Assembly: GCA_903830915.1 (NCBI GenBank)
Contig: CAIKVR010000237.1
Coordinates: 1 to 43,701, forward strand
DNA: 43,701 nt
DNA from: an uncultured Bacteroidales bacterium
Lineage (GTDB): Bacteria; Bacteroidota; Bacteroidia; Bacteroidales; Paludibacteraceae
Reading direction: 5' to 3'
The notes under the pieces were generated by a model, which saw nothing but the letters and a program-made list of their open reading frames with translations, was not told the origin of the DNA and did no database searches. The translations under genes and the position numbers were made by a program. Below are positions 3,078 to 43,701 of the stretch, piece after piece. Position 1 is the stretch's first letter, and each line of letters begins with the position of its first letter.

Positions 3078-3096
3078 TTAGAGTAATTATTGACGT

Positions 3097-4728: not shown

Positions 4729-4749
4729 AGAAATATATTGAATTTTGTA

Positions 4750-7700: not shown

Positions 7701-8076
7701 TTAAATATGACTTGTCATCAAGAACTACATTAATAACATTCTTGCTGTTAATTTTCACAATTTGTTTTTCAAAACCTACATATTGTATTGAAAGACTGTT
7801 CTTTGGATTTTTTACTTTTAACACATAGTGGCCATTAATATCTGTTGTTGTTCCTGTCATAACACGGTTATTGATGTCAATTTCGGCAACTGAAACACCT
7901 ATTAAAGCTTCTTTGTCAAGGTTTGAGATTATTTTCCCCTGTATAATCATAGCAGACTGAGCATTTACAGTTACTGCAACAATAAATAAATTACAGAAGA
8001 TAAATATAATCTTTAAAGGCCTGATCCAAGTAAATTTATTGTCTTGAATATTTTCTTTTCTGTTCAAATGTATCAT
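4750..8076 (-). CDS. SusC/RagA-family TonB-linked outer-membrane transporter
   Basis: This 1108-residue protein is a SusC-type TonB-dependent transporter that imports oligosaccharides through the outer membrane together with the SusD protein encoded next. A signal peptide ends near residue 40 (VTVNAQ). A carboxypeptidase-regulatory-like domain follows at about 45-115 ('GHYVLKVKN', 'IQYVGFEKQIVKI'). The plug domain runs from about 145 to 270 ('VDEALQGRIAGLDIV', 'SMRIRGVTSINGN', 'VLKDAAASAIWGSKGANGV'). The rest is beta-barrel, ending in 'SKDFTLGVTVGL' with the family's terminal aromatic or hydrophobic strand. Its start lies 2 bases after the stop of the upstream FAS1 gene, which implies translational coupling. 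The likely substrate, beta-1,3-glucan, is inferred only from the GH128-type gene in the same operon. Confidence 0.95.
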   Translation of the reverse strand: MIHLNRKENIQDNKFTWIRPLKIIFIFCNLFIVAVTVNAQSAMIIQGKIISNLDKEALIGVSVAEIDINNRVMTGTTTDINGHYVLKVKNPKNSLSIQYVGFEKQIVKINSKNVINVVLDDKSYLKEGVEVVASKKQSQGGYSIPQREIGTAMQTISAKEFEGLQVSSVDEALQGRIAGLDIVSNSGDPGSGTSMRIRGVTSINGNSQPLIVVNGVPYEAQVDPNFDFANSNQEQYASMLSINPDDILEITVLKDAAASAIWGSKGANGVLMITTKKGTSGPTHLEYSYRFTRTVQPQGLNMLNGGDFTMLMKQAYFNPKQDRTASDIDEYNYDPNFPDYQNYNNNINWVNEVAQVGNINDHYVTLSGGGERATYRVSGGYFDQTGTVIGQRLRRISSRAYLEYQVSDRIKFISEFSLTNSDNYRNYENLLSIAYRKMPNVSIYAQDANGVNTNTSYNIPVTSTLSSDQRNLKNPIALANLATNRLQSFRILPTFRMQYDLLDPQKSMLRYSMYVSFDINNSKTTMFLPQEVSNFVWNTSGVNRAENYDSENLTIYTDANIAWQPKFEDKDHSLLLYGSFQTNFGNSASQGIVTYSLPSAEAIDASGTGYLASAYSSHYPWRSAAYMLRGHYAYKSRYIIDGTFRMDGSTKFGAANKWGNFPGISLKYIFSDEPFMASAKKDWLSMLAFRPAWGVSGNQPGAEYLHFSRYETYGTYADNIAIKPATLRLSNLKWETTTSFNYGIDLGLFDDKYVFDINFYKKQTKDLLFSNVQIPASSGFGSESYINGGTMNNNGWEINFYANRFIKTKDFSIDFKFNLANYTNTLVELDQRLLDSYNGDFNYGNGSYLTRVQEGNSFGSIYGFRYKGVYKYDQYSSDHTNAPVAKDAQGNVITDRDGNPKPVWFNYYGKNGGTPYKFRGGDAIYEDVNHDGSIDELDIVYLGNSNPKINGGFGPSFRYKNLTCTMFFNFRYGNKIINAARMAAENMYFDNNQSIAVNWRWRKDGDETQMPRALHNWGYNWLGSDRYVEDGSFLRFKYLTFNYSVPPKLLKKFSVNKLSLYLTFNNLICWSKYTGVDPEVGYGSIGLSTDNSQTPRSKDFTLGVTVGL

Positions 8077-8078
8077 GA

Positions 8079-10709: not shown

Positions 10710-10746
10710 TTTAAATCAATTCTTTAGATATGTAGTTTTTAATATA

Positions 10747-13461
10747 TCATTGTTTCTCAAATTTCAAAGGCGGATTTCCATGGCTTCTTATCAGGTAAAA
10801 TCCGGGAGTCAGATCACTTACATTAATTTTACTATTAATCAAATTTTCCTGTTTTAGTAGTTTTCCGTAAATATTAAAAATTTCAACAGTTGACTGTTCT
10901 GATATGTCGGATTTAATGTAAAGGACATCTTTTACCGGATTAGGATATATGGAAATTGTACTTTTTGTAGGATTAAAAATCGCGGTGTCATCATTTTGTG
11001 TGGTACTTATTACCATCCAACCTACCTGTTCGGCATAATTAGTGGTTATAACAGAACTGGTTGATTTCTCTCTTTGTTTTGTCACATTAGCATATTTTGC
11101 CGACAAAGAAACAATTCTGAGCGCAGCCGTAGAATCATCATTGCAGGTCTGCATTTGCGAAATAAAATTTGGATTCGCAATACTATCACCGAAATTTATG
11201 GTAAAATATGATGAGCCTACTATTTTATCTGCTGTTTTACCAACTATCACTTTTTTATTGTTGAATGTGCCTACACCTGGAATTATGGCCAGATAAGAAA
11301 CTGATTCTGTACCCATTACTGAAGTATTGGCTGTTTCTTTCATCGTTCTTGCTTCAAAACCTATTTTTGTAATGTTTCTAACTCTTACATTAGTAGCTAA
11401 AGTGGAGGCAGAAAGTAATTGATTGGCAAATACAACAGGAATTGTATCGAAAGGAGTAGCAAATGTGAACTTTGTCCATGCAGGACCAGCTGAAACTCGT
11501 CCGGTTTGAGCTTTCAATCCTCCGAAATTGTATGATTTACCGGATTCAAAAATAGCATAGGATATATTTTCATCCTTTGGAAATGTAGGACTTACCTGAT
11601 AACTCCATGGAGCAAGCTGCAAATTAAACCTGGTTTTATAACTTATTAACTTCACCCTTGGTGTGATAAGTGCAGAGCTGTTATTATTTGTTGGTGCTCC
11701 AGTTATTATTACCGGTATAGCGGAATAAGGTTTTCTGAAAATAACAGGATTTACGCCTATATTATTAAACGAAAGAACTCCGCATTGAATTGTATCACTA
11801 CCAGCAGTAACATCCCAACCTATTTCGTTGGTATATGCCGACAATGTACTACCGGGAAGCTTGGATTTTGCACGAAAACGCACTTTACTTCCCTTTGAAA
11901 AGTCAAGTGTATCTACACATGTTTTTATGGTGGATAAATCGGTAGTTGCAAATTGAGAATAGCTTCCGTTATCAACTTTCTTTTCTACAATATACCCGTT
12001 GTAATAATCTAAATTCGGATCAACTACTGACACCGTAATTTTTGTATCAGTGAGTGCCACCGATAGTGACGGATTTGAATAATTAAAGGTAGGAATCACT
12101 TCATATTTTCGATTAAAAGCAAAAGTAGGATTATCATTTGCATAATATTTTCCTGCAGGAGTCAGTGTATCTCCTAAAACCATTGCTCTACAATCCTGTA
12201 CCCAATTATAAATTGAATATCTTTCGATAAAGGATGCTGTGTCTAAAACATTGAGAATGCCTTTCAAATCAGACAATTGCTTAGCTGCATTTGCTGCTGA
12301 TAAGGTATGATCCGTTGTAGGCCATGTCTCAGTAGTCCAGTTAGCACCGTTATTCCATTCGGTTATCCATATCGGGCGACCAGTTTTCTGATAAACATAC
12401 TTCAAATTACTTAACCAACTTGCTGGAGATGTATTTCCCCAATAAGCATGAACAGCTACGTAATCAACCCGGTAGTTTTTTGCTTTACAGCTATCTATAA
12501 AACTATAAAGCCACGAGAAGTTCGTAGTTGCAGGAGCTCCTAATCTCAATCCGGTTCTCATCATGTCAGGCCACTGAGCTAATGCCTGAGATACTGTAAG
12601 GTTTGATTGTTCGGTATGATCCGGTTCATTGAACCCTAGCACATGCGACACATATTGTTTCGCATTAATTTCCGCCCAACCCGGCCAACCACCATTTTGG
12701 CGTATCGGAACATATTCTACATAATTCGTAGTGGTACCACCAGCACTCCAGTCGTAACGCCAATTTGCATTTACCAAATTATATTGTGTCAGGCTGCTAC
12801 CTGCCCAGCCTTTTTTTGAAACCCATTCCCAACTAGTAACTCTGATAAATGATATTTTCTGATCAAGCAGATTGGGCAATAACGTGACTTCAAGATTACT
12901 GTTATCGGCAATGTAAACCCTACTATATCCAGTTCCGTCAGTAGTAATAGCAAAGGTAGCCATATAGCCTTTTTTCAACTTAAAGGAACGAATTTTATTA
13001 TCCATTACTCCAAGCGAATTGTAAAATGTAAACATTGAATAAGAAGCGGAGTCACCTGTAAAGTTTGCACCTGTATATACTTTCAATGGTTGAAATCCTG
13101 AAGACTGCCCAACAACAACAGCCCCTTGTTTATATATCGATATCCGTGCATTTGTTTTCTGAACAGCCTGACTACCATTTACATAAATAAATTTCAACAA
13201 CGAATCTACCACTGTTTGAGGCCGTATATTGTCGAAATAAACAAATGCGTCTTCAGAGTTTAGATTTACAACAGAATTAATTAAAGGAGTTGTAGATTTT
13301 GTGAAATGTAGATTTGCATTTCCAGTCAGATTTATTTCTTTATCAGTTAATGAACTCACTGATGAAGTTCCTGTAGTCAGATTTAAAGGGGTTCTGGTTT
13401 GGCTTACAAGAAAAAGAGAAATGCACAAAAAAACAGAAAGAAAAGTATGTTTAATTTTCAT
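10747..13461 (-). CDS. Secreted GH128-type glycoside hydrolase with T9SS tail
   Basis: This 904-residue protein has a signal peptide (residues 1 to about 21), a beta-rich N-terminal region to about 200, a TIM-barrel catalytic region at about 201-440, Fn3-like and other beta modules, and a type IX secretion tail from about 830 ('ISIYPNPVKDVLYI', 'VEIFNIYGKLL'). The catalytic part matches the Asl1/GH128 family of endo-beta-1,3-glucanases: 'GFNEPDH' gives the probable acid/base Glu279 and 'WITEWNN' the probable nucleophile Glu368. 'VDYVAVHAYW' lies between them. It is the first gene of the SusC/SusD operon, 37 bases before the FAS1 gene, and would cut polymer outside the cell. The family call is firm at fold level; the exact substrate is inferred. 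Confidence 0.85.
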   Translation of the reverse strand: MKIKHTFLSVFLCISLFLVSQTRTPLNLTTGTSSVSSLTDKEINLTGNANLHFTKSTTPLINSVVNLNSEDAFVYFDNIRPQTVVDSLLKFIYVNGSQAVQKTNARISIYKQGAVVVGQSSGFQPLKVYTGANFTGDSASYSMFTFYNSLGVMDNKIRSFKLKKGYMATFAITTDGTGYSRVYIADNSNLEVTLLPNLLDQKISFIRVTSWEWVSKKGWAGSSLTQYNLVNANWRYDWSAGGTTTNYVEYVPIRQNGGWPGWAEINAKQYVSHVLGFNEPDHTEQSNLTVSQALAQWPDMMRTGLRLGAPATTNFSWLYSFIDSCKAKNYRVDYVAVHAYWGNTSPASWLSNLKYVYQKTGRPIWITEWNNGANWTTETWPTTDHTLSAANAAKQLSDLKGILNVLDTASFIERYSIYNWVQDCRAMVLGDTLTPAGKYYANDNPTFAFNRKYEVIPTFNYSNPSLSVALTDTKITVSVVDPNLDYYNGYIVEKKVDNGSYSQFATTDLSTIKTCVDTLDFSKGSKVRFRAKSKLPGSTLSAYTNEIGWDVTAGSDTIQCGVLSFNNIGVNPVIFRKPYSAIPVIITGAPTNNNSSALITPRVKLISYKTRFNLQLAPWSYQVSPTFPKDENISYAIFESGKSYNFGGLKAQTGRVSAGPAWTKFTFATPFDTIPVVFANQLLSASTLATNVRVRNITKIGFEARTMKETANTSVMGTESVSYLAIIPGVGTFNNKKVIVGKTADKIVGSSYFTINFGDSIANPNFISQMQTCNDDSTAALRIVSLSAKYANVTKQREKSTSSVITTNYAEQVGWMVISTTQNDDTAIFNPTKSTISIYPNPVKDVLYIKSDISEQSTVEIFNIYGKLLKQENLINSKINVSDLTPGFYLIRSHGNPPLKFEKQ

Positions 13462-32480: not shown

Positions 32481-33998
32481 TTATTGACGAATGAAACTTT
32501 TACGGTTTAGTTTACCTGTCCATATATCGGTAGTTGGGATTAATGTGGTGTTGCTTTTTGAATTCCGGCGACCAGAGCTATATCTTCTTGCATTTTCGGG
32601 ATTATTATTTGCCTTCCCTCCGATAAGGAAAATCCTTTTGTTTGTATCATCCACCACAACAGACTGATAAATATGTGGCTGATAATAATTTGAATAGCTA
32701 ACAGTATCTTTATATGTTTTGGATGTTTTAAACTCTTCGCCGTGAGCAATTTGATTGTAGACCGTATCCGGAATATACCAACTCAACCCTTCATCTTTAG
32801 ATTCCCTATAATAACCTCTTACCAACTGACTCCCTTTTTTTACAGAACCGAAAAGTAGTAATTTATTATCATAAGATATTACGCTCGAACCTTCTGCTAA
32901 AGAGTCCAATGAATGATTTTCAGTACTGAAATCTACCCAATAAACACCATCTTCCGAACTCCAGCAATTTTTTAATGGAGTATTTGTATTTGTAGGAGAA
33001 TAACCTCCCAAAACTAATACTTTTGATTTTCCGGTAACTGTAGAAATTGTTATAGCTGAAAAATCAGTTACTGGAAAATTGTCAGGAATTTTCCCAATCA
33101 TTGTCCATACAACACCATTGGAAGTTGTTGCGAAATGATAAGTAGCATCTGAAACGGATTGAACTACAGCCCACAACTTATTATTCCAAACGCAAAGTAA
33201 GGAATTAAATGAAAAATCAGTAAAAGTACTTTTTGTCCAGTCATTTAGACCATTCGAAGAAGAGAAAACATTAAAACCATCATGCGAAACAAATAATTTT
33301 CCATTAAACTGTAGCATGTCGTTTAACGGGGTATTCACTGGTAAGCCATTTAAAGAGTTCTCTTGAATCCATGTTTTTCCATCGGACGAAGTAAAAAGAT
33401 AAGCAGCTAATCCATCATTCATGTAATAATAGATTTTATTATTCAGAAAAATAGCTTTCTGATATTTAGCATTGACAGAATTTACCTTATCAGTAAGATT
33501 CGCCCAAACATATAATTCTGGATGAACCTTATGCACATTTATTTTTATTTTATATGGGTGATTGTGTATTCCGTCACTTGCATATTTATTAACCCATAAT
33601 GCTGAATCCTTATTAGTCCACAATGCCTGTCGGAAATCAACTGTATCTTTACCGGTTATATAGATTGAGTCATTACCTTTCGAAAATTTATATTTATAAA
33701 TCGTACGATTTTTGGGAAAATAAAGCACAGCTTTTGCAGTACTTTTGAATGCAAATGTTGGATACAAACTGTCAATCCTCGTTCTGAAAGGCAAAGAATC
33801 TATATTTTCAATGGTTGTTCCACTTGCATCGAGAGCAAAAACTGCTGTTTTTGCCGAGTCATTACCCGCTAACGTCATTGAAACAAAACTTGCATCATTC
33901 GATTTAGCTGGAGTAGTGGTAGTTGTTGTATCTAAACACGAACTTAGAATTAGTAACGCGGAGAAAACTGAAAATAAACGGAAGAAATTGAATTGCAT
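32481..33998 (-). CDS. DUF6242-type lipoprotein, beta-propeller-like
   Basis: This 505-residue protein has a lipoprotein signal with lipobox LSSC at about residue 21, then a Thr-rich linker (six Thr). The N-terminal 150 residues ('SFVSMTLAGNDSAKTAVFALD', 'KGNDSIYITGKDTVDF') form a beta-rich domain. The rest has repeated strand-turn units such as 'LFTSSDGKTWIQE', 'FSSSNGLNDWTKS', 'FATTSNGVVWTMI' and 'SKDEGLSWYIPD', typical of sialidase/kelch-like propellers with Asp-box-like turns. I recognise it as DUF6242; its function is unknown. It is probably displayed on the outer membrane. It has its own terminator. Confidence 0.8.
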   Translation of the reverse strand: MQFNFFRLFSVFSALLILSSCLDTTTTTTPAKSNDASFVSMTLAGNDSAKTAVFALDASGTTIENIDSLPFRTRIDSLYPTFAFKSTAKAVLYFPKNRTIYKYKFSKGNDSIYITGKDTVDFRQALWTNKDSALWVNKYASDGIHNHPYKIKINVHKVHPELYVWANLTDKVNSVNAKYQKAIFLNNKIYYYMNDGLAAYLFTSSDGKTWIQENSLNGLPVNTPLNDMLQFNGKLFVSHDGFNVFSSSNGLNDWTKSTFTDFSFNSLLCVWNNKLWAVVQSVSDATYHFATTSNGVVWTMIGKIPDNFPVTDFSAITISTVTGKSKVLVLGGYSPTNTNTPLKNCWSSEDGVYWVDFSTENHSLDSLAEGSSVISYDNKLLLFGSVKKGSQLVRGYYRESKDEGLSWYIPDTVYNQIAHGEEFKTSKTYKDTVSYSNYYQPHIYQSVVVDDTNKRIFLIGGKANNNPENARRYSSGRRNSKSNTTLIPTTDIWTGKLNRKSFIRQ

Positions 33999-34020
33999 AG
34001 CTACAAATTTATTTGAACTG

Positions 34021-34029
34021 ACAAAGTTA
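34021..34029 (-). promoter_or_regulatory. -7 promoter box for the DUF6242 gene
   Basis: The minus strand reads TAACTTTGT, fitting TAnnTTTGY, 23 bases before the ATG at 33998. No clear -33 TTTG is seen. Confidence 0.5.
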
Positions 34030-34119
34030 AATTTATTTTGGTTTATCTGAACTGCTTACAGTAAGATTTATTGTTTTTTATCATTAAAAACAACATTTTT
34101 GAGAAAAGGCATGGCAAAA

Positions 34120-34884
34120 TTAATCATTTAGTTCTACAACAACCGGACAATGGTCGGAATGTATAGCATCCTGAAGGATTGCTGCCGATTTCAATTTAGT
34201 GCGAAGACTTTCAGTAACCCAATGATAATCAATACGCCATCCTGCATTTCTAAATCTTGCACCACCCCGGTAACTCCACCAACTGTATTGTTCGGCACGG
34301 TTATCGAAAACCCGGAACGAATCAACCATTCCTGCAGCTTCAAATTTATCGAGCCAGGCACGTTCCTCAGGTAAAAAACCGGAAACTCCATTCTGCCGCT
34401 CAGGATGATTAATGTCAATTGGTTTATGGCATATATTATAATCGCCGCAAATGATCAGGTTGGGACGTGTTTTACGAAGTTCTGCCACAAATGGAGCAAA
34501 TGCTTCCAGAAAATCCATCTTAAAAGCCTGTCGCTCTTCGCCCGACGAACCGGAAGGAATGTACACGCTTATAACCGAAATATCACCAAAATCGGCACGA
34601 ATTACCCGACCCTCGTCATCGTAACGCGGATTGTTCATACCAATAACCACATTATCCGGCGTTCTTTTGGTTAGAATGGCAACACCACTATACCCCTTTT
34701 TTTGTGCCGAATGGAGGTATGAAGTGTAACCCAGTTCAGCAAAAATCATTGTATCAATTTGGTCGGGCTGGGCTTTAGTTTCCTGAAAACAAATTACATC
34801 AGGGTTTTCTGCCTGCAACCATTCGGTGAAATTTTTGCTCAACGCAGCACGAATTCCATTAACATTATACGATATTATCTTCAT
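34120..34884 (-). CDS. xth: Exodeoxyribonuclease III (AP endonuclease)
   Basis: This 254-residue protein is ExoIII/ExoA, which cleaves DNA at abasic sites and degrades 3' ends in base-excision repair. Motifs are complete: 'IISYNVNGIRA' at the start, 'ICFQETKA' with the metal-binding Glu, 'VYIPSG', 'CGDYNICHKPID' (catalytic Asp/Asn), 'WWSYRGGARFRNAGWRIDY' and 'SDHCPVV' with the catalytic His. Length is normal. Its start overlaps the end of the MlaF-like gene by 4 bases, so it is translationally coupled to the transporter genes, a linkage with no obvious functional sense. Confidence 0.97.
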   Translation of the reverse strand: MKIISYNVNGIRAALSKNFTEWLQAENPDVICFQETKAQPDQIDTMIFAELGYTSYLHSAQKKGYSGVAILTKRTPDNVVIGMNNPRYDDEGRVIRADFGDISVISVYIPSGSSGEERQAFKMDFLEAFAPFVAELRKTRPNLIICGDYNICHKPIDINHPERQNGVSGFLPEERAWLDKFEAAGMVDSFRVFDNRAEQYSWWSYRGGARFRNAGWRIDYHWVTESLRTKLKSAAILQDAIHSDHCPVVVELND

Positions 34885-35639
34885 TGATTGGCTTTTTTTA
34901 CTTTTTTGTATAATTCCGATGCGAAAACAAAATCATTCAACGCCTCATTATGAACATGAAAAATATCACTATTGTTTCCTTCCCAGGCTTTTTCGCCTTT
35001 TTCAATAAAGATTATATTTTCCCCAATTTCCATAACCGAGTTCATGTCGTGCGAATTGATAATTGTTGTAATTTCAAATTCATGCGTAATTTCATGAATC
35101 AGTTTATCAATAACAAGTGAAGTTCTTGGGTCGAGACCTGAATTTGGCTCGTCACAAAACAGGTATTTAGGTTGTAGAGCAATAGCACGGGCAATTGCCA
35201 CTCGTTTTTGCATTCCACCACTGATTTCGGAAGGTGCAAGATGAAATGCCTTTTCTTCCAGATTTACCCGTTTCAGGCAAAAAATAGCACGCTCTGTCAT
35301 CTCTTCGGCTGAAGTTGGTGAAAACATTTCGAGCGGATACATCACGTTTTCAAGTACACTCAGCGAATCGAAAAGTGCTGAACCCTGAAAAAGCATTCCA
35401 ACTTCGCGGCGTAGAATACGGATTTCACTCATACGCATGTCAGGCAGATTACGTCCATCATATTCAATCTTACCGTTATCAATACGGTGCAATCCAATAA
35501 TACTCTTCATCAACACCGTTTTTCCCGAGCCGCTCTGACCAATAATCATGTTGGTTTTTCCGGTCTCGAAAACGGCTGAAACATTTTTCAATACATGATT
35601 GCCATCGAACGATTTATCTACGTTTTTTACTTCTATCAT
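34881..35639 (-). CDS. mlaF: MlaF-like ABC transporter ATPase
   Basis: This 252-residue ATPase powers an Mla-type phospholipid transporter at the inner membrane. Walker A 'GQSGSGKT' is at residues 34-41, the signature 'ISGGMQKRVAIARA' near 140, and Walker B 'YLFCDEPNSGLDP' near 163. The 'SGGMQKR' form, with Met and Gln, is typical of the MlaF group. It follows the permease gene by 61 bases and overlaps xth by 4. The substrate-binding MlaD (MCE) gene is not in the window. Confidence 0.93.
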   Translation of the reverse strand: MIEVKNVDKSFDGNHVLKNVSAVFETGKTNMIIGQSGSGKTVLMKSIIGLHRIDNGKIEYDGRNLPDMRMSEIRILRREVGMLFQGSALFDSLSVLENVMYPLEMFSPTSAEEMTERAIFCLKRVNLEEKAFHLAPSEISGGMQKRVAIARAIALQPKYLFCDEPNSGLDPRTSLVIDKLIHEITHEFEITTIINSHDMNSVMEIGENIIFIEKGEKAWEGNNSDIFHVHNEALNDFVFASELYKKVKKANQ

Positions 35640-35700
35640 TTTTAGTTCGTAAAGTCTGTAAAGTTTGAAAGTTGTTGAGTTGCTTACCGCTTACTGTCAA

Positions 35701-36441
35701 TTAGTTTAGCATAATCTTAGTAATGAGAATATTGAAAAACAGAATCAGAATACTTCCATTCACAACCGCATTGGTACTGGCTTTACCCACATCCAATGCA
35801 CCTCCGTAAGCATAATAACCATAATAGGCAGCTACTGATGATATTATAAATGCAAAAATCATGGATTTAAAAATGGAATAATAAACGTAAAACGGTATAA
35901 AAGCATATTGAATTCCGACCAAATAATCGCCGGTAGTTAGTATATTAGTAAAAACTCCTACAAAATATCCGCCGCCAACACCCAATGCCATGCTGAAAAT
36001 TACCAAAAAAGGCATCATTACCACAAATGCAATAATTTTTGGAAGAACCAAATAATTCGCTGAGTTTACACCCATAATTTCAAGTGCATCAATCTGTTCT
36101 GTAATTCGCATTGTACCAATTTCAGAAGCAATATTGGAACCTACTTTTCCGGCCAAAATAAGACATAAAATGGTAGAAGAGAATTCAAGCAACAAGGTAT
36201 CACGGGTAACCAAACCGGTAGTATAAATCGGGAGTAACGGATTTGATGTATTAAGCTTGGTTTGCATGGTCATTATAAATCCAATGAAAACTGATATTAT
36301 AGCTACAATCGGTAATGACTGAAGTCCCAGTTTTTCAAGTTCCTTAGGAAATTGCCGAAAAAACATTTTCCAACGGTCAGGCCATACAAATACCCTTTTC
36401 ATTAATAAAAAAAATCTGCCTGTTTCACTCAATAAACTCAT
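35701..36441 (-). CDS. mlaE: MlaE-like ABC transporter permease
   Basis: This 246-residue membrane protein is of the MlaE/YrbE permease family. Hydrophobic segments lie near residues 45-60, 95-115, 135-165, 185-205 and 220-242. Family motifs include 'IGFIMTMQTKLN', 'RDTLLLEFSSTILCLILAGKVGSNIASEIGTMRITEQIDALEIMG' in segments, and 'VGKASTNAVVNGSI' near the end. With the MlaF-like ATPase it would move phospholipids between membranes. A near-perfect promoter precedes it. Confidence 0.94.
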   Translation of the reverse strand: MSLLSETGRFFLLMKRVFVWPDRWKMFFRQFPKELEKLGLQSLPIVAIISVFIGFIMTMQTKLNTSNPLLPIYTTGLVTRDTLLLEFSSTILCLILAGKVGSNIASEIGTMRITEQIDALEIMGVNSANYLVLPKIIAFVVMMPFLVIFSMALGVGGGYFVGVFTNILTTGDYLVGIQYAFIPFYVYYSIFKSMIFAFIISSVAAYYGYYAYGGALDVGKASTNAVVNGSILILFFNILITKIMLN

Positions 36442-36480
36442 ATTCTGAAACTTTTTTTGATGTGTTTTTGAAATTTAGCT

Positions 36481-36512
36481 GCAAAGATACTCTTTTTTGG
36501 GGATAACTCAAA
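36481..36512 (-). promoter_or_regulatory. Consensus promoter of the mlaE-mlaF-xth operon
   Basis: On the minus strand TTTG (36509-36512) is followed after exactly 19 bases by TATCTTTGC (36481-36489). This matches the full Bacteroidota vegetative consensus. The 5' UTR would be about 33 bases. The rest of the 320-base gap to 36761 is AT-rich, with no gene or clear terminator that I can see. Confidence 0.8.
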
Positions 36513-36761
36513 TAAAGCTTCTTTATCCATGATTGCCAAATATAAGATATTCAAATAGTTAGCTTTATTCATTGCCCGTAAGTTACTTGATTTTCAGCAT
36601 AATTATAAATTGTTCTGAAAAAGTAATGCTATAGCAACTAACATTCATGTTGTTGCGAATGTTCTTGAAATTATATAATTAAGGGATTCGGTAGGTGTAG
36701 GTGGAAAATGCCGATATTTTTCACAAACTCCAAACAAAGACAGGATTAAAGCATGCAAATT

Positions 36762-39035
36762 TCAATTTCCCGAACATCCACAAAGATGTTTATCAAGCAT
36801 ATTTTTCAGATGATCCAAATCGATTGGTTTTGTCAGAAAATCATTCATACCGGCATTCATTGCTTTGTCTTTTTCTTCTTGCAATGCACCAGCTGTAAGG
36901 GCAATTATTGGTAGGCTTTTCGCTCTTTCAAGGTCAAGTAGTCTGATGTTTCGGGTTGCCTCCATGCCATCCATTTCGGGCATCTGAACATCCATCAGCA
37001 CTAAATCCAGGTGTTTTTGCTTCACAATTTCTAAGGCTTCCCTTCCGTTTCTAGCCTCAATTATTTCAACATTAGGTAGAATATTTGTTACCAAAACTTT
37101 GATTAACAGCATATTCATTTCAACATCTTCGGCAATCAGAATTACTTTTTTATCGGTTATCGTGCCTGATTCTATGTCTTCATTGCAATTTCTATCTGTA
37201 ACTGAAATTTTATTTTCAGCTTTTTCAGACCTGATTGAATCACTTACAAGTGCCAGTAAATCATCTGCTTTCACAGGTTTCATAAGTTTGTAGGTAATAT
37301 CCCCTTTTCTCAGAATATCGTTAATTTGATCTTCATCGGAAGCCTGATGCATAATTGCAATTTTCATACTTTCATTGGTAATCTGAAGTTTATTCCGGAT
37401 ATGTGAAATAATTTCCAATCCCCCTAAATCCGGCATTGCAAAATTACAGATAAACAACTCGAATTTATCTGCCTGAAGTTCAAAAAGAGCATTCAGGGAA
37501 CTTTCGCACAACGAATATTCAACACCCCATCTATCAAAATGTTCTGCAATATTTTTCAGATTATTGGAATTATTGTCAAGAACTAATACTTTTTTATGTT
37601 TGATTTCCAAACTATTAGCTATTATTTGTTGATTGAATTCGGTTTCGATGCTAAAATGAAAATTGCTGCCTTTACCCCATTCGCTGTCGAATAACAGTGA
37701 ACTATTCATTTTCTCAACCAATAAATTAGAAATAACTAATCCCAGACCTGTACCACCGAATTTGCGGGTTGTAGAACCATCGGCCTGAGAAAATGCCTTG
37801 AACAGCCTTTCTCTTTGCTCTTCAGTAATTCCAATTCCTGTATCGCGAACCGAGAAATGATATGTAATTTTATTATCGTCCTGAATGTTGAATGTAACTT
37901 TTATCTCCACCTCACCCTTATCTGTAAACTTGATGGCATTACTCAACAGGTTTATCAGGATTTGCTTCAATCGAAGAGGATCCAGCATAGCCTTTCGGGG
38001 TATGTCTGGTTGAATAGACAATAATAATTCAAGTCCTTTGTTGGTAGCCGAGTATTTAATTATATCAATTGTCTGATTAAGTACTTCAACTATATCGGTT
38101 TCAATAATATCCAAATCAAGCTTACCGGCTTCAATCTTAGAAAAATCAAGAATATCGTTTATTATTTCGAGAAGTGCTTTTCCCGCACTATTAACATTCT
38201 CGGTGTACTGTTTTTGCGATTTAGTCAAATCTGTTTTGAGCAACAATTCGGTAAAACCTAGAATTGAATTCATTGGAGTACGGATTTCATGACTCATGTG
38301 TGCCAGAAAATCGCTTTTTGCTCTGTTTGCCTGTTCAGCTTGCTGTTTGGCTTTTTCAATTGCCAGTGCTTTGTCTTCCAGTTCACGGTTTAGCGCAAGC
38401 ACCCCTTTGTTTGTTTCTTCCAGTTCTTTATTAATTATCTCAATCTCTTCGTTACGTTCCTGCAGGTTTTTAAGCAGGAAAAGCAATTCATTATTCTGAT
38501 TATTAATAGTTTCAACCAGACTGTTATCACCACGTTCGATGGTTTTGCTAAATGCAGTCTGAATTGCTTCTAATGTTTTTTCGGTGATGGAGATTGTGAA
38601 TGGGGCTAACCATTTGGCAATGGTAATTTCTGTTCCTTTACCGGCTTGTGTCTGAATATCAAAATCATCCATCAATCGTTGTGAACCACTCAACCCGACT
38701 CCCATACCTTTCTTTGAGACAAAAGAGCCGTTTCTGATTTCATCCAATTGCTGAATTCCCTGACCACGGTCTTTGAAAACAATGACCACGCCATCGCTGC
38801 TATCCCTTCTTTTGGCTACATAAAAATCGATTTGCCCGCCATTAGCATGCTCTATCATGTTTCTACTCAATTCAGAAACTGCAGTGCCAATGCGAATGCT
38901 GGATGTTTTATCGAACTTTATCTCCTGAGCAAGCAAGGAGCCCAAATTTCTGGCTCGTACCACATCCGACTCGAACTGAACCGGTATTGTACCTACTTTA
39001 TGAAGCGTGGCTGATAATAAGAACGGTGGCATCAT
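36762..39035 (-). CDS. Hybrid histidine kinase with N-terminal RsbT-like ATPase domain
   Basis: This 757-residue soluble protein has five parts: an RsbT/RsbW-like ATPase domain (about 10-145; '[16 protein letters not shown]', 'KDRGQGI', '[15 protein letters not shown]'), a coiled coil (about 170-240), HisKA with phospho-His249 ('[11 protein letters not shown]'), a HATPase domain ('[10 protein letters not shown]', '[10 protein letters not shown]'), and two receiver domains. REC1 (about 482-600) has Asn531 where the phospho-acceptor Asp belongs ('FICNFAMP'); REC2 (about 630-750) keeps Asp682 ('[11 protein letters not shown]') and Lys736. There are no membrane segments. The start overlaps the upstream fusion gene by 38 bases. 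It is the last gene of the stressosome operon and probably its output. Confidence 0.9.
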
Positions 39036-40059
39036 CGTTGAGTCGTGAATAATTATTGATCAAATAATCGGCTATTTTTTGGGGATGATCTTTCCAGTTT
39101 AGTTCATCCGTATTCCATCGGGTATTTATTCCGTCACTAAAAAGGCAAACTGAATCGCCGGCATTAAATGGAAATTCAAAAATCTGAGGAGTCCGGATAT
39201 TGTGTCCCAAAATTCCGCCAAATGAAATCAGACTCTTTTTCCCTGATGGAGAAAATACAAATCCTTCGATGTTACCAATACCCACAAAACTGAGTTTTGA
39301 AGTTTCTATATTGATATAAACTAACCCAATAACTGCTCCACGAGTACCACGTGCCGCCTGATGAATATAATTTATCAAATCAACAAGTGGTAGTTCGCTT
39401 TTCAGCAGTATTTGTTCTTTGATAATATTGGAAGCCAGATGCGCATCTTTGCCATGACCAAGACCATCAATTATAGCTGCAATTGTTTTCAACGGACTTA
39501 GGTTACAAATCACGTATGAATCACCATTCAGTGTTTCGCCGGGTTTGCAACGTGAAACTGCACCTGTTATCAGATTTCTGTTGGTTCCTTTCCAACGGTT
39601 TTCAGGAATCCATTTTACTATTCGAATACAATGTTTATAGCTGTTTAGTGATTTGATATCTATATCATTGAATGATTCACTCAGCTTTGGATTTACGTCA
39701 AAGATATCGGAAAACCGACGAATTGTTCCCAATCCTATACCCAATGTCTGTTTATTGGTGAATCCATCATGCATTGCCTTTTCCATATCGGGAATGCCAT
39801 TCCCTCTATCGAAGCACCATATTTCGATAGCTTTCCGGTTCTCACTATCCTGCAATTGACAAACCATTATCCTACCTTTGCCTCCACCATGTTTCAGCAC
39901 ATTGGTAACAAGCTCCGAAACCAGAATGGCAACTTCACCGGTTTTTACATCATCAAACCCAAGTTGTCCGGCCAGACTGACAGATTTTCGTCTGCATACC
40001 CCAACATCGGCTTCACTATCAATTTCCAGAACTAAAATTTGTTCACGGTTCATTTCCAT
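38998..40059 (-). CDS. RsbT-like ATPase fused to RsbX-like phosphatase
   Basis: This 353-residue protein joins two stressosome activities. Residues of about 10-150 form an RsbT/RsbW-type kinase domain ('[20 protein letters not shown]' with the N-box, '[10 protein letters not shown]', '[14 protein letters not shown]'). Residues of about 165-353 form a PP2C/SpoIIE-like phosphatase domain resembling RsbX, with metal-binding Asp198 ('[12 protein letters not shown]'), Asp309 ('FSDGI') and Asp342/343 ('NDDATVLII'). In Bacillus, RsbT phosphorylates RsbS and RsbR, and RsbX removes the phosphate. The fusion would carry both functions in one chain. It overlaps rsbT by 10 bases and the hybrid kinase by 38. 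Confidence 0.88.
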
Positions 40060-40475
40060 TTCATCACCCTCACAGTAGTTCCTTTGTTCAGCTCTGAAGA
40101 TATTTCAAATCTGTCAACCAGTCTTTTTGCTCCGGGTAATCCGTAACCCATTCCTCCGCCCGAAGTATATCCATCTGTCATTGCTAACTCAATATTATCT
40201 ATCCCCGGGCCTTTATCAATACAGGTAATTATCAATGTGGGCTTTTCTTCAATTATACCTTTTTCAATGAGTACTTCGCCTCCCGATGCATACGAAAACA
40301 TATTCCTGAAAAGCTCAGAAACAGCAGTGGTAATACGGGTTTGATCAACAATACCCATGCCTTCCTTTTTAGCAAATTCACGTACAATTTGACGTGCTTT
40401 CACTATGTCATATTCATTCAGAATAGGGCATTTTTCGAGCAATTCCCAACTTTTATCTGATACAATTTCCAGCAT
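40050..40475 (-). CDS. rsbT: RsbT-like stressosome serine/threonine kinase
   Basis: This 141-residue protein is a single-domain kinase of the RsbT family. It has the N-box 'TTAVSELFRNMFSYASGGE', 'CIDKGPGIDN' and the G2 lid 'SGGGMGYGLPGAKRLVD'. In stressosomes RsbT phosphorylates RsbS and RsbR and is then released to act on a downstream partner. The usual partner is RsbU, which is absent here. The gene lies 11 bases after rsbS and overlaps the fusion gene. Confidence 0.93.
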   Translation of the reverse strand: MLEIVSDKSWELLEKCPILNEYDIVKARQIVREFAKKEGMGIVDQTRITTAVSELFRNMFSYASGGEVLIEKGIIEEKPTLIITCIDKGPGIDNIELAMTDGYTSGGGMGYGLPGAKRLVDRFEISSELNKGTTVRVMKWK

Positions 40476-40486
40476 TGATTTTTAGA

Positions 40487-40861
40487 TTATGCCTTGTTTA
40501 ATCTTTTTTCAAGCATTTCCATGCCCAGCTCCATGTTTAGTGCAGTATCTACTCCCGGCATTTCGAGCCCAAGTTCCACAAGCGTGATGGCTACCGCAGG
40601 TTGCATACCTACAATAACAACTGCTGCATCCATGATAGCTGCCATCGATGCCATTCCTGACAGTACCCGACCAATAAATGAATCAACCATCTCGAGTGTC
40701 GAAATGTCGATTAGCACACCTTTAGAGCCGGTACGGTAAATTTCTTCCAGAATTTGCGTTTGCAACTGTAAAGCCAATCTGTCGTGCATATCCACCTGAA
40801 TGGAAACAATCAGGTAGTCACGAATCTTAATAATTGGTATTCTTTTTTCGTTGAAGTCCAT
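40487..40861 (-). CDS. rsbS: RsbS-like stressosome scaffold (STAS)
   Basis: This 124-residue protein is a lone STAS domain of the RsbS type. 'IPIIKIRDYLIVSIQVDMHD' opens it and 'DISTLEMVDSFIGRVLSGMA' carries Ser61, which lines up with Ser59 of Bacillus RsbS, the residue phosphorylated by RsbT. 'ELGLEMPGVDTALNMELGMEML' closes it. RsbS and RsbR build the megadalton stressosome core that holds RsbT. The gene is 11 bases after rsbR and 11 bases before rsbT. Confidence 0.94.
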   Translation of the reverse strand: MDFNEKRIPIIKIRDYLIVSIQVDMHDRLALQLQTQILEEIYRTGSKGVLIDISTLEMVDSFIGRVLSGMASMAAIMDAAVVIVGMQPAVAITLVELGLEMPGVDTALNMELGMEMLEKRLNKA

Positions 40862-40872
40862 AGCTATTATAT

Positions 40873-41556
40873 TTAATTATCGTCCAGGTCAACGTAGTTG
40901 GTCTTCACTTTTCCATCCACAAGTTGTTCATTTTTCTTCATCGAATAAATCATAGCATCCTGAAGTGTAGCTTTTGTAAGTATCTGCGACAGATTTATTC
41001 CTAAATGTACAATAGTTTGTGCAATGGCAGGGCTTATACCGCTTACAATACATTCTGCACCTAGTAAACGGGCAGCAGTAACGGTTTTCAGTAAGTGATT
41101 AGCTACCTGAGTATCCACTGTAGGAACACCTGTAATGTCGAGAATCGCAGTTGTACATCCGGTTGTAACAATTTTCTGCAACAGGTTTTCCATCATTATT
41201 TGAGTACGTTGGCTGTCTAACGTTCCAATAACCGGAAGAATCAGGATATTATCCCAAACTTTCGAAACCGGGCTCGACAATTCCATCAAATCTTCCTGCT
41301 GTTGAAGGATGGTTTTTTGTTGGTCTTGAATTTTATGAAGCTTTTCTTCCATTTCTTGTTTCATTTTCAGGCTCTTCTTCAATTCGTGAGTGAGGTCATC
41401 AATCAGCAAATTAATTGCCTGTTCTACACCGGTAAGATCGTCTTCAATGTCCGATTCAATTCTTAATTCAAGTTCACCTGCCGCAACCGACGACAGAACA
41501 TCTTCAATGTGTTCAATACGTGCTTTGGCGTTTTTAATTTCTGTGTTTGCTTCCAT
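40873..41556 (-). CDS. rsbR: RsbR-like stressosome sensor/scaffold with HAMP-like N-terminus
   Basis: This 227-residue protein ends in an RsbR-type STAS domain (about 95-210): 'SPVSKVWDNILILPVIGTLDSQR', 'LDITGVPTVDTQVANHLL' with Thr149 at the expected phosphosite, and 'GISPAIAQTIVHLGINLSQI'. The N-terminal 60 residues are not a globin or PAS domain but look HAMP-like ('VAAGELELRIESDIEDDLTG', then 'AINLLIDDLTHEL'). A coiled coil follows at about 55-92. So this RsbR has a short linker-type input and perhaps senses through a partner. It lies 3 bases after the second SpoIIAA-like gene. Confidence 0.9.
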   Translation of the reverse strand: MEANTEIKNAKARIEHIEDVLSSVAAGELELRIESDIEDDLTGVEQAINLLIDDLTHELKKSLKMKQEMEEKLHKIQDQQKTILQQQEDLMELSSPVSKVWDNILILPVIGTLDSQRTQIMMENLLQKIVTTGCTTAILDITGVPTVDTQVANHLLKTVTAARLLGAECIVSGISPAIAQTIVHLGINLSQILTKATLQDAMIYSMKKNEQLVDGKVKTNYVDLDDN

Positions 41557-41559
41557 AAT

Positions 41560-41925
41560 TTATTTCCTTTTACTTTTTAACCATTCTATTGCTTCGTCAA
41601 TACTTTTGAAGAAATCACCGTTTAATTTTACAATGCCGGTTTTAATTAGCACTTTTGCCATTATCCTGTTGTAAGCATTTCCACCCACAAAAGCTACTTC
41701 AGATAAATTTAACTTGCTCAATGTATCTGCAAGTGCTTCTCTTGTTTCGCGGTTTTCCACAACATAAACGTCGCTAATCATTGACACTAATTGCCTGTAT
41801 TTCTTATCTTCCAGTATAATTCTAAGATTGTCAGACAAGGGTTGAATATCAGTTAATCTTAAGTTCGCATTAGAACTAAGAACAACCACTTCATTTTGTT
41901 CGTCGTACTTTAATTCATGATCCAT
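41560..41925 (-). CDS. SpoIIAA/STAS-like small protein, paralogue B
   Basis: This 121-residue protein resembles the SpoIIAA-like/STAS-SEC14 family. It shares with the next gene the start 'M-D/E-HELKYDE', a central 'VENRETREA', 'LSEVAFVGGNAYNRIMAKVLIKTGI' and the end 'FFKSIDEAIEWLKSKRK'. That shared start fixes the ATG at 41925 instead of an in-frame codon 24 bases upstream. The two copies are about half identical by eye. No SpoIIAA-type phospho-Ser motif is obvious. Its place in the stressosome operon suggests a sensor, scaffold or cap role. Confidence 0.82.
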   Translation of the reverse strand: MDHELKYDEQNEVVVLSSNANLRLTDIQPLSDNLRIILEDKKYRQLVSMISDVYVVENRETREALADTLSKLNLSEVAFVGGNAYNRIMAKVLIKTGIVKLNGDFFKSIDEAIEWLKSKRK

Positions 41926-41995
41926 AATATTTAATTTTAAAATTGACAAATAGGGTTGGGTAGTGATTTACAATAATGCATGGTTTAAGAAAAAA

Positions 41996-42358
41996 TTACC
42001 GTTTACTTTTTAACCAGTTAATTGCTTCTTCGTAGTCTTTGAAAAAATCTCCATTTAATTTTATGATGCCTGTTTTCAATAAAACCCGGGCTATCATCCT
42101 GTTAGTGGCATTACCGCCAACAAATGCTACTTCTGTTATATTGAGTTTGGATAATTGATCACTTGTTGCTTCTCGTGTTTCCCTGTTTTCAACATTATGG
42201 CTTTCACTCATCACCACAAGCATTTGACGAATTTGCTTACCTTCGAGCATTTCCTTTACCCGCAAAAATAATGGATCTACATCTTTGTGAAGGAAGTGAT
42301 TTTTGAATGCAAGTACTACAATACTGTTTTTTTCGTCATACTTTAATTCATGTTCCAT
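41996..42358 (-). CDS. SpoIIAA/STAS-like small protein, paralogue A
   Basis: This 120-residue protein is the first gene of the stressosome operon and a tandem duplicate of the following gene. Shared features are 'HELKYDEKN', 'NVENRETREATSDQLSKLNI', 'TEVAFVGGNATNRMIARVLLKTGIIKLNGDFF' in segments, and a terminal 'EEAINWLKSKR'. The fold is inferred to be STAS-like from alternating strands and helices and the conserved 'FF...AINWL' end. The 70-base gap to the next gene has no clear hairpin, so both are likely on one transcript. Confidence 0.82.
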   Translation of the reverse strand: MEHELKYDEKNSIVVLAFKNHFLHKDVDPLFLRVKEMLEGKQIRQMLVVMSESHNVENRETREATSDQLSKLNITEVAFVGGNATNRMIARVLLKTGIIKLNGDFFKDYEEAINWLKSKR

Positions 42359-42417
42359 AATGCTCAGAATTTAAGAAAATAAAATAGATTTCAGGGAGGA
42401 TTTATTTTTACATTGAG

Positions 42418-42426
42418 GCAAAGATA
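42418..42426 (-). promoter_or_regulatory. -7 promoter box of the stressosome operon
   Basis: On the minus strand this reads TATCTTTGC, a full consensus match. It would give a 5' UTR of about 55 bases. A TTTG lies 15 bases further up, closer than the usual 19. One promoter appears to serve all seven genes, which are separated by at most 70 bases or overlap. Confidence 0.65.
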
Positions 42427-42526
42427 CTGAAAAAATTATGACAAAATACAATGAGGTTCAAAAGATTTTCATGAAGATGAAAAATTGATAATGTAGAGAG
42501 CAAAAAAAGAGTTTCTTTGTGGTTTT

Positions 42527-43462
42527 TTAGTAAGATTTGTTGCTCTTCTTACGTATTTTTTCAGCATCCAATTGTGCTTTTGATTTGCTTTGAGTTACGA
42601 TATACACACCAGCAAAAACCAACACACCTGATAAGGCTTTTTCAATACCAAAAAAATCGATACCAATAGCCACAGCAACCATCGAAGCAACTACAGGTTG
42701 TACATAATTATACATACTCAGTGTGGTGGGTCGAAGTACTTTTTGTCCAATAGGAATAAGTAAGTAACCTATGAATGTGGCAAAGCTTACTACATAAGCG
42801 ATGCGCCAGTACGTGCCGCTACTCAACATCGTGAAATCGGTTTGAGCAATAGATTTATAGCAAAATGGCAAACACGAAAGTGTACCAAACAGAAACATCC
42901 ACTTCATAACTGTTATCGATGAATATCGTGTAATAAGTTCCTTGAAAAGTGTCAGGTACAGGGCAAATGATCCTACTGCACTAAACACAATCAAATTTCC
43001 CCAAAAATTACTGTGTCCGTTATGAATTATTGGACTGTGGAATACCAACAATAATGCACCGGATGCTCCAACTAAAACGCCGACAGCTTTCATTATTGTG
43101 ATAGGTTCTTTCAGAATAATAGCAGCAAGTATCATAGTGACGATGGGTAGCATGGTAACCACAATCGACGCATCAATTGGTGAAGTTATTGAAAGTCCAA
43201 TAAAGAATGGTAACTGATTTAATGTCAGGGCAAAAAGCGAGGCGAAAAACAACAATAATAGATCTTTTGCCGGAACATGTTCTTTTTTTACAAACAATGA
43301 TACTGTCCAGAATAACAGTAATCCACCGCCCAGCCTGAAAAAAGTCAGTGTGTACGGACTTAAAATTTGAGGCATCAATGTTCGTGATATGGGTGCATTT
43401 AATCCGAAAATGATATTTGCCATAAACATGGCTATATGACCTGTAAGTTTATTTTTTTTCAT
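42527..43462 (-). CDS. EamA/DMT-superfamily transporter
   Basis: This 311-residue inner-membrane protein has ten hydrophobic helices in two EamA repeats, about residues 8-140 and 155-295. Typical features are 'HIAMFMANIIFGLNAPISR' at the start and 'LGGGLLLFWTV'. The basic, Lys-rich C-terminus (KSKAQLDAEKIRKK) lies in the cytoplasm. Members export metabolites or amino acids, but the substrate cannot be predicted. It stands alone with its own promoter, divergent from the tRNA gene. Confidence 0.92.
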   Translation of the reverse strand: MKKNKLTGHIAMFMANIIFGLNAPISRTLMPQILSPYTLTFFRLGGGLLLFWTVSLFVKKEHVPAKDLLLLFFASLFALTLNQLPFFIGLSITSPIDASIVVTMLPIVTMILAAIILKEPITIMKAVGVLVGASGALLLVFHSPIIHNGHSNFWGNLIVFSAVGSFALYLTLFKELITRYSSITVMKWMFLFGTLSCLPFCYKSIAQTDFTMLSSGTYWRIAYVVSFATFIGYLLIPIGQKVLRPTTLSMYNYVQPVVASMVAVAIGIDFFGIEKALSGVLVFAGVYIVTQSKSKAQLDAEKIRKKSNKSY

Positions 43463-43478
43463 GTTGATGATTGAGCCG

Positions 43479-43487
43479 ACAAAGGTA
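43479..43487 (-). promoter_or_regulatory. -7 promoter box of the EamA transporter gene
   Basis: The minus strand reads TACCTTTGT, fitting TAnnTTTGY, 17 bases before the ATG. A TTTG lies 21 bases upstream of it. The 5' UTR would be only about ten bases. Confidence 0.6.
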
Positions 43488-43578
43488 GTAAATATGTAAG
43501 TAACAGTACAAAATCAACCATTGAAAAGCCAATTCAGTTCAACTCTTATGACTTTTTTTGTATTTTTCGGTTTGTTGC

Positions 43579-43610
43579 TTTGTGAATTCAAAAAAAGACC
43601 GTATATTTGC
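43579..43610 (+). promoter_or_regulatory. Consensus promoter of tRNA-Phe
   Basis: TTTG at 43579-43582 is followed after exactly 19 bases by TATATTTGC at 43602-43610, with the tRNA starting 18 bases later. The spacing is the same as at the mlaE promoter. Confidence 0.85.
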
Positions 43611-43627
43611 ACCCGCTAAGCAAAAAT

Positions 43628-43700
43628 GGTACCATAGCTCAGTTGGTAGAGCAAAGGACTGAAAATCCTTGTGTCCCCGGTTCGATTCCTGGTGGTACCA
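43628..43700 (+). tRNA. tRNA-Phe (anticodon GAA)
   Basis: The 73-base cloverleaf is complete: acceptor stem GGTACCA/TGGTACC, D arm GCTC/GAGC, anticodon stem AAGGA/TCCTT with loop CTGAAAA giving anticodon GAA, and T loop TTCGATT. The T stem CCCGG/CCTGG has one C-U mismatch in the middle. The base after the discriminator A is C at the window edge, so an encoded CCA end cannot be judged. Confidence 0.95.
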
Positions 43701-43701
43701 C

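Follow-up and report, generated by a model that had tools for sequence, protein, structure and literature searches.

A stressosome locus that ends in a hybrid histidine kinase

The DNA analysed here ("the window") is a stretch of 43,701 nucleotides that constitutes a whole contig of a Paludibacter-related Bacteroidales metagenome-assembled genome (MAG; 4.7 Mb, 436 contigs, 87% complete), and the subject of this report is a stressosome locus at positions 42358–36762 of that window. The original prediction placed seven co-directed stressosome and kinase genes here, and the open reading frames (ORFs), Pfam matches and conserved gene order confirm them: seven ORFs, all on the minus strand, encode, in order of transcription, two DUF7793/SpoIIAA-like proteins (a and b), RsbR, RsbS, RsbT, a fusion of an RsbT-like domain to a PP2C phosphatase, and a hybrid histidine kinase (Table 1). 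Hereafter, R-S-T-(T.X) denotes RsbR, RsbS, RsbT and the RsbT-PP2C (RsbX) fusion. The two DUF7793 genes are separated by 46 bp (73 bp if b begins at ATG 41922), the genes that follow are separated by 3, 11 and 11 bp, and the last three genes overlap, by 10 bp (RsbT/fusion) and 38 bp (fusion/kinase); the flanks comprise 168 bp upstream of the first gene and 320 bp downstream of the kinase gene. The tight gene spacing suggests that the seven genes are co-transcribed. A Bacteroidota-type promoter pattern occurred 5 times against 3.6 expected and nowhere in the 168 bp upstream of the first gene; sigma-70-like sites (26 against 20.0 expected, standard deviation 4.2) and terminators (4 against 3.6) were near chance; and an Rfam scan of positions 33000–43701 yielded nothing except a tRNA. 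The latter, a tRNA-Phe, lies at 43628–43701, at the extreme end of the contig.

Table 1. Genes of the stressosome locus in order of transcription, with window coordinates
Product	Position	Strand	Features
DUF7793/SpoIIAA-like protein a	41996..42358	-	120 aa; STAS-like fold (predicted)
DUF7793/SpoIIAA-like protein b	41560..41949	-	Likely start ATG 41922; Pfam DUF7793 32.3 bits
RsbR	40873..41556	-	STAS 53.7 bits; HAMP-like helical N-terminus (1-94)
RsbS	40487..40861	-	STAS 33.9 bits; Ser61 in DSF motif
RsbT switch kinase	40050..40475	-	HATPase_c 47 bits, HATPase_c_2 42 bits
RsbT-like domain (1-150) + PP2C/SpoIIE phosphatase, RsbX-like	38998..40059	-	HATPase_c_2 38.2 bits, SpoIIE 42.7 bits
Hybrid histidine kinase	36762..39035	-	Pfam HATPase_c_2, HisKA, HATPase_c, two Response_reg stretches

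Stressosome proteins without a detectable sigma-B pathway

As judged by alignment of the genes, the locus has the features of a stressosome RsbR-RsbS-RsbT set: that is, the RsbS serine, an RsbR STAS domain with acceptor residues, and the RsbT nucleotide-binding boxes. The DSF serine is present in 13 of 13 aligned RsbS proteins, that of the window included. RsbR matches Vibrio vulnificus RsbR (7o0i; E = 9e-34) and also Listeria RsbR, and its candidate acceptors, Ser115 and Thr149, align with residues 175 and 209 of the Listeria RsbR chain, which we take to be the positions of Bacillus subtilis RsbR Thr171 and Thr205. RsbT has complete N, G1 and G2 boxes (Asn58, Asp87, GMGYGL) and matches the anti-sigma F factor SpoIIAB in PDB (E = 4e-5); the three boxes are intact also in the fusion and the kinase of the window, and the PP2C aspartates are retained in all 18 aligned fusions.

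The window's RsbR lacks the usual N-terminal domain and has in its place a short, HAMP-like stretch that is helical in the structure model; the best Pfam HAMP match among six members has E = 4.4e-4, and the window's own score, 13.7 bits, is under the cut-off of 25. In contrast, RsbRD_N is found in RsbR of L065, a locus from the same class (loci from other genomes are given L numbers). Stress input probably does not pass through the usual RsbR N-terminal domain, and, as a speculation, the DUF7793 pair might supply it. Proteins a and b, which are 59% identical, are the only DUF7793 matches in the whole genome, and predicted structures give DUF7793 proteins a STAS-like fold resembling those of RsbS and SpoIIAA; the best match of a DUF7793 profile to PDB sequences has E = 0.32. 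When secondary structure alone is used to locate the STAS acceptor position in nine aligned DUF7793 proteins, the residue there is Asn in seven and Ser in two, and a Thr stands three residues past it in all nine.

The original prediction gave this stressosome a hybrid kinase, and not sigma-B, as its output, and that assignment is supported. In the MAG, at 87% completeness, there are no RsbU_N matches and the best SigB/F/G score is 107 against a cut-off of 234, so that neither RsbU nor SigB of the SigB cascade was found. HATPase_c_2 has nine matches in the genome, of which the three above 30 bits are those of this locus and the others score 28 bits or less. No RsbV or RsbW is encoded in the locus, to which the search for RsbV-like STAS proteins was confined.

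The output kinase begins with an RsbT-like domain

The kinase comprises an RsbT-like domain (residues 1–145; Pfam HATPase_c_2 at residues 30–141, 50 bits), a linker containing ELEETNxGVxAL, a HisKA domain with His249, a HATPase_c domain, and two receiver stretches, REC1 and REC2, and thereby has the features of a hybrid kinase for phosphorelay, namely the HisKA histidine, the HATPase and a receiver with Asp (REC2 Asp682). In two pairs with the window, the ratio of nonsynonymous to synonymous differences (pN/pS) is 0.12–0.14 for the RsbT-like domain, 0.14–0.17 for the linker and core, 0.22–0.26 for REC2 and 0.43–0.44 for REC1, making the RsbT-like domain the most constrained part of the kinase, with the HisKA/HATPase core close behind. 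The originally predicted RsbT-like domain of the kinase is real; it has a Pfam match and groups with RsbT in a tree (see below). REC1 (window 37221–37604) is the fastest-evolving part, and its phospho-Asp is lost in the Paludibacter trio (window, L019 and L020) only, as compared with L059–L061. No separate response regulator is present within the locus; receiver proteins adjoin the locus in L062, L077 and L097.

The module recurs in Bacteroidota and on plasmids of other phyla

The same seven genes are found in the same order in the congeners L019 and L020, between unrelated flanks, and in L059–L061, from the same taxonomic order, with one DUF7793 gene; since the arrangement is kept amid different neighbours in the former and with a single DUF7793 gene in the latter, it is not a matter of chance. 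Named relatives are an uncultured Bacteroidales MAG and the MAG Paludibacter jiangxiensis. Identity to L019 and L020 ranges from 94–99% for RsbS down to 71–73% for the kinase, and pN/pS is 0.01–0.24 across the seven genes in three pairs. At E <= 1e-3 the fusion is found in 3 of 40 close genomes, the window's own counted, all three among the 24 of the same genus. An RsbS profile matches 5 of 295 genomes of the order (own counted); one of the five, G677 (L070), was rejected, being a weak STAS match in a 490-aa protein with no stressosome.

A broad RsbS profile at 1e-20 matches 9 of 395 class genomes (own counted). In each of them R-S-T-(T.X) precedes a kinase whose front is RsbT-like or degenerate; another kinase intervenes between the fusion and the RsbT-fronted kinase in L077. 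Because the RsbS profile was built from such loci, divergent stressosomes may be missed; G747 (L090), with an unfused RsbX and a kinase with a degenerate RsbT-like front, was missed by it. The L090 stressosome (2358–6123) has a short RsbR of 135 aa with little beyond the STAS domain. In the phylum search, the fusion matches 57 of 395 genomes at 1e-3, with seven places near full length and the rest pieces.

R-S-T-(T.X)-kinase modules occur also on plasmids of Deinococcus radiodurans (MP1), another Deinococcus, Paraburkholderia, Caballeronia, Variovorax, Sphingomonas, Phaeobacter, Alloyangia, Xanthomonas, Embleya, Nonomuraea and the archaeon Halobaculum. The module thus recurs in Deinococcus, Proteobacteria, Actinomycetota and one haloarchaeon besides Bacteroidota, and the RsbT-like front domain is not special to this locus. 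Several of the plasmid regions have features of their own: transposase genes lie upstream and a partition gene downstream of the module in L094 (D. radiodurans MP1, 5117–10921); L097 (Halobaculum halophilum plasmid, 3398–7796) is a complete R-S-T-(T.X)-kinase-regulator operon in a haloarchaeon; and in two Streptomyces plasmids (L104, 8065–9435; L109, 8062–9438) the fifth gene encodes, in place of the kinase, a SpoIIE-type phosphatase with a degenerate RsbT-like front. L111, L113 and L114 have RsbT-PP2C-like fusions without neighbouring rsbR or rsbS.

The front domain is retained with and without ATP motifs

The comparison of outputs covers 34 R-S-T-(T.X) loci, 18 from the window's phylum (the window, L019, L020 and L059–L061 of the same order or genus; L063–L069 and L074–L077 of the same class; L062 sharing no rank below the phylum) and 16 from plasmids (L094–L098, L100–L109 and L112). 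The plasmid loci come from 21 regions chosen to span genera among 98 and 106 matching records. L099, whose record stops inside the fusion, and L111, L113 and L114, which have a T-PP2C-like protein and no stressosome, were left out; L110, L090 and L071–L073, with unfused RsbX, were set apart; and L107 was counted despite a partial RsbS match and no RsbR seen.

An RsbT-like front domain is present in 30 of the 34 outputs. It is complete in 15 (window, L019, L020, L059–L062, L077, L094, L095, L100, L101, L103, L107 and L112), including the copy on D. radiodurans R1 plasmid MP1, which has all three ATP boxes. It is degenerate in another 15 (L063–L069, L074–L076, L098, L104, L105, L106 and L109), which lack the N-box Asn, the DxGxG motif and the glycine box. 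None is detected in L096, L097, L102 and L108 (two Variovorax, Xanthomonas and Halobaculum). A script checked the box motifs of 13 complete outputs, of which L095 and L107 pass only by a shorter GVG[IL] glycine box, and of 13 degenerate ones, L090 included; for L019, L060, L064, L065 and L066 the motifs were read off the alignment.

Loss of the ATP motifs has not erased the resemblance to RsbT. A profile of seven degenerate fronts matches RsbT with an hhalign probability of 97.3%, and five degenerate proteins taken singly, including L090 from outside the set of 34, do so at about 93–98%. In a tree, each kind of domain forms one side of a branch, and the kinase fronts, degenerate ones included, group with RsbT, separately from the fusion domains (split 100/99), although long branches meet there. 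Because the ATP motifs are lost in 15 of 34 outputs while the match to the RsbT profile is retained, the comparison speaks for a front domain kept without ATP chemistry, with binding as its retained function. The combination of T domain and linker is matched in 2 of 395 class genomes, both at stressosome loci (at most seven candidates scored per genome). RsbU_N is found in none of 12 outputs scanned from 11 loci with fused RsbX and in three of five outputs from loci with unfused RsbX (L071–L073, but not L090 or L110).

Half of the 34 outputs (17) carry the linker motif in the form ELEETNxGVxALxxEL: 6 of the 18 from the window's phylum and 11 of the 16 from plasmids. The motif spans four bacterial phyla and an archaeon; it is not found in the second kinases of L062, L094 and L103, nor in the Vibrio kinase discussed below.

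Proposed docking by RsbT mimicry and its alternatives

We propose, with a probability of roughly one half, that, in the stressosome encoded by this locus, the output kinase mimics RsbT to dock on the RsbR/RsbS scaffold and is freed upon scaffold phosphorylation. RsbR and RsbS would form the STAS scaffold, with RsbT as the switch kinase, the T-PP2C fusion as the resetting phosphatase and the hybrid kinase as the output. At rest, the RsbT-like domains of RsbT, the fusion and the kinase would all occupy STAS faces of the scaffold; upon stress, RsbT would phosphorylate RsbS Ser61 and RsbR Ser115 and Thr149, freeing the RsbT-like domains held there; in the freed kinase, its own RsbT-like domain would set the linker coiled coil in the active register, in cis, comparably to RsbT acting on RsbU, and REC2 would be the phosphate receiver; and, for reset, the fusion would rebind and then dephosphorylate the scaffold. 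What the analysis establishes is the genes and their domains, the retention or loss of motifs, the conservation and the tree; we infer scaffold binding, phosphorylation, release, activation and the role of REC2.

Several observations weigh against this proposal. The 15 complete front domains may have kinase activity and not serve as plugs, and all four outputs without a detected RsbT-like domain carry the linker motif; because these four retain it, some other coupling of the output may exist. The set of 34 loci came from searches for similarity to this module, with the plasmid loci picked by hand. The degenerate fronts match the fusion domain at 14%, a weak contrast to their match with RsbT in view of a three-row fusion profile, and tree support is modest (68/72 for RsbT; 67/24 for the complete kinase domains, or 91/86 once the degenerate ones are omitted). 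REC1 has Asn in place of the phospho-Asp in the Paludibacter trio (Asn531 in the window; L059–L061 retain Asp), and no phosphorelay partner was found, a scan for Hpt in the 87% complete MAG giving one sub-threshold match; the phosphorelay output of the original prediction is not borne out by these two results. In a D1-like kinase from a Vibrio sp. (L110), PAS, two REC stretches and Hpt are detected, and neither an RsbT-like domain nor RsbU_N. Finally, Heinz et al., working on V. vulnificus, report no positive interaction of VvRsbT with VvD1 (PMC9237108), which neither supports nor excludes docking. For the first 60 residues of the L110 kinase, a by-eye reading as a decayed RsbT was tried and is not supported: hidden Markov model scores fall within those of ten negative controls, and hhalign gives 2.5% with a score of 18.7, barely over the largest of 150 shuffles (18.1).

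The alternative that survives best, although we consider it unlikely, is action in trans, in which released RsbT switches the kinase on, either by binding to its conserved linker or RsbT-like domain or by phosphorylation. RsbT contacts the RsbU linker (PMC12143880), Heinz et al. propose RsbT-dependent kinase phosphorylation (PMC9237108), and the occurrence of the linker motif in half of the outputs fits this alternative, which is favoured in the four that have no detected front domain. However, the genome has no RsbU_N match, the motif is missing from 12 of 18 Bacteroidota outputs, and action in trans leaves unexplained why 30 of 34 outputs retain an RsbT-like domain. The original prediction had allowed that RsbT either competes with the kinase domain or activates it: competition for the scaffold fits the data, and activation persists as this rival, the loss of ATP motifs in 15 of 34 outputs favouring binding.

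More doubtful still is a second partner switch, in which the RsbT-like front of the kinase would act as a functional Ser/Thr kinase on a separate STAS partner, for which the DUF7793 pair is a candidate. The window's kinase front has all three ATP boxes, and the DUF7793 proteins are STAS-like in fold and confined genome-wide to this locus; however, no DUF7793 was seen in loci with a complete T-kinase at L062, L077, L094, L095, L100 and L103, the acceptor position is mostly Asn (although the nearby Thr is invariant), and the ATP motifs are gone from half of the 30 front domains. That the hybrid kinase is an ordinary neighbour with an independent signal, its RsbT-like domain a relic, is very improbable: decay of REC1 in the Paludibacter trio and the lack of a phosphorelay partner in the genome scan would fit, but the gene order is retained across phyla and, within the kinase, conservation is highest in the RsbT-like domain.

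Discussion

The stressosome of B. subtilis and Listeria, with RsbU-RsbV-RsbW-SigB, shares RsbR, RsbS, RsbT and the acceptor positions with this locus, whereas the window has no RsbU_N, no SigB-type match above cut-off, and an RsbX fused to an RsbT-like domain. Partner-switch fusions of the Mycobacterium tuberculosis Rv1364c type carry RsbW/RsbT-type and PP2C domains in one chain; they differ in domain order and context, the window's fusion being located in an rsbRST operon.

Two papers (PMC9237108, PMC10014275) describe stressosomes with two-component outputs, and RsbR-RsbS-RsbT-RsbX (RSTX) modules in many phyla, including Bacteroidetes, with phosphorelay proteins among the downstream modules. 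As in the window, RSTX of V. vulnificus, with VvD1/VvD2, consists of RsbRST and RsbX followed by a kinase and not by sigma-B; there, RsbX is described as a single-domain protein and RsbR carries a globin sensor, whereas in the window RsbX is fused and the RsbR N-terminus is HAMP-like. According to Heinz et al. 2022 (PMC9237108), most downstream proteins considered there lack RsbU_N, and the route of the signal to them is only suggested. According to PMC12143880, RsbT acts on the N-terminal domain and linker of RsbU, the linker forming a coiled coil, and kinases with RsbU_N are known. Such stressosome-linked kinases and cyclases with RsbU_N (Moorella MtG; proteobacterial kinases) resemble the window's kinase in having a swappable adapter and a helical linker before the output; they differ in that the window's adapter resembles RsbT itself and not RsbU_N, the receptor of RsbT. 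The accessible parts of PMC9237108, PMC10014275, PMC7522486, PMC7647112, PMC12143880, PMC6848086 and PMC3999984 contain neither an RsbT-like domain on an output kinase nor an RsbT-RsbX fusion; an earlier description (Pane-Farre 2005, 2017) is possible. Within the limits of this literature check, what is new is that the output protein starts with an RsbT-like domain; the original prediction took the gene set and its fusions to be uncharacterized, whereas stressosomes beside two-component outputs have been published.

More broadly, and tentatively, an RsbT-like docking domain, whether active or a pseudo-RsbT, may be a general second stressosome adapter in several phyla, replacing RsbU_N and holding and releasing outputs (histidine kinases; PP2C in Streptomyces), with switch kinase, phosphatase and output competing for the same scaffold sites. 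The RsbT-like front domain would give a concrete signal route for one large set of outputs without RsbU_N, and the RsbT-RsbX fusion would be explained by the same docking principle. If ATP-dead copies still dock, the binding role of RsbT would be separated from its kinase role. The recurrence of the layout in several bacterial phyla suggests a possible way for stressosomes to signal in the absence of the usual sigma-factor pathway.

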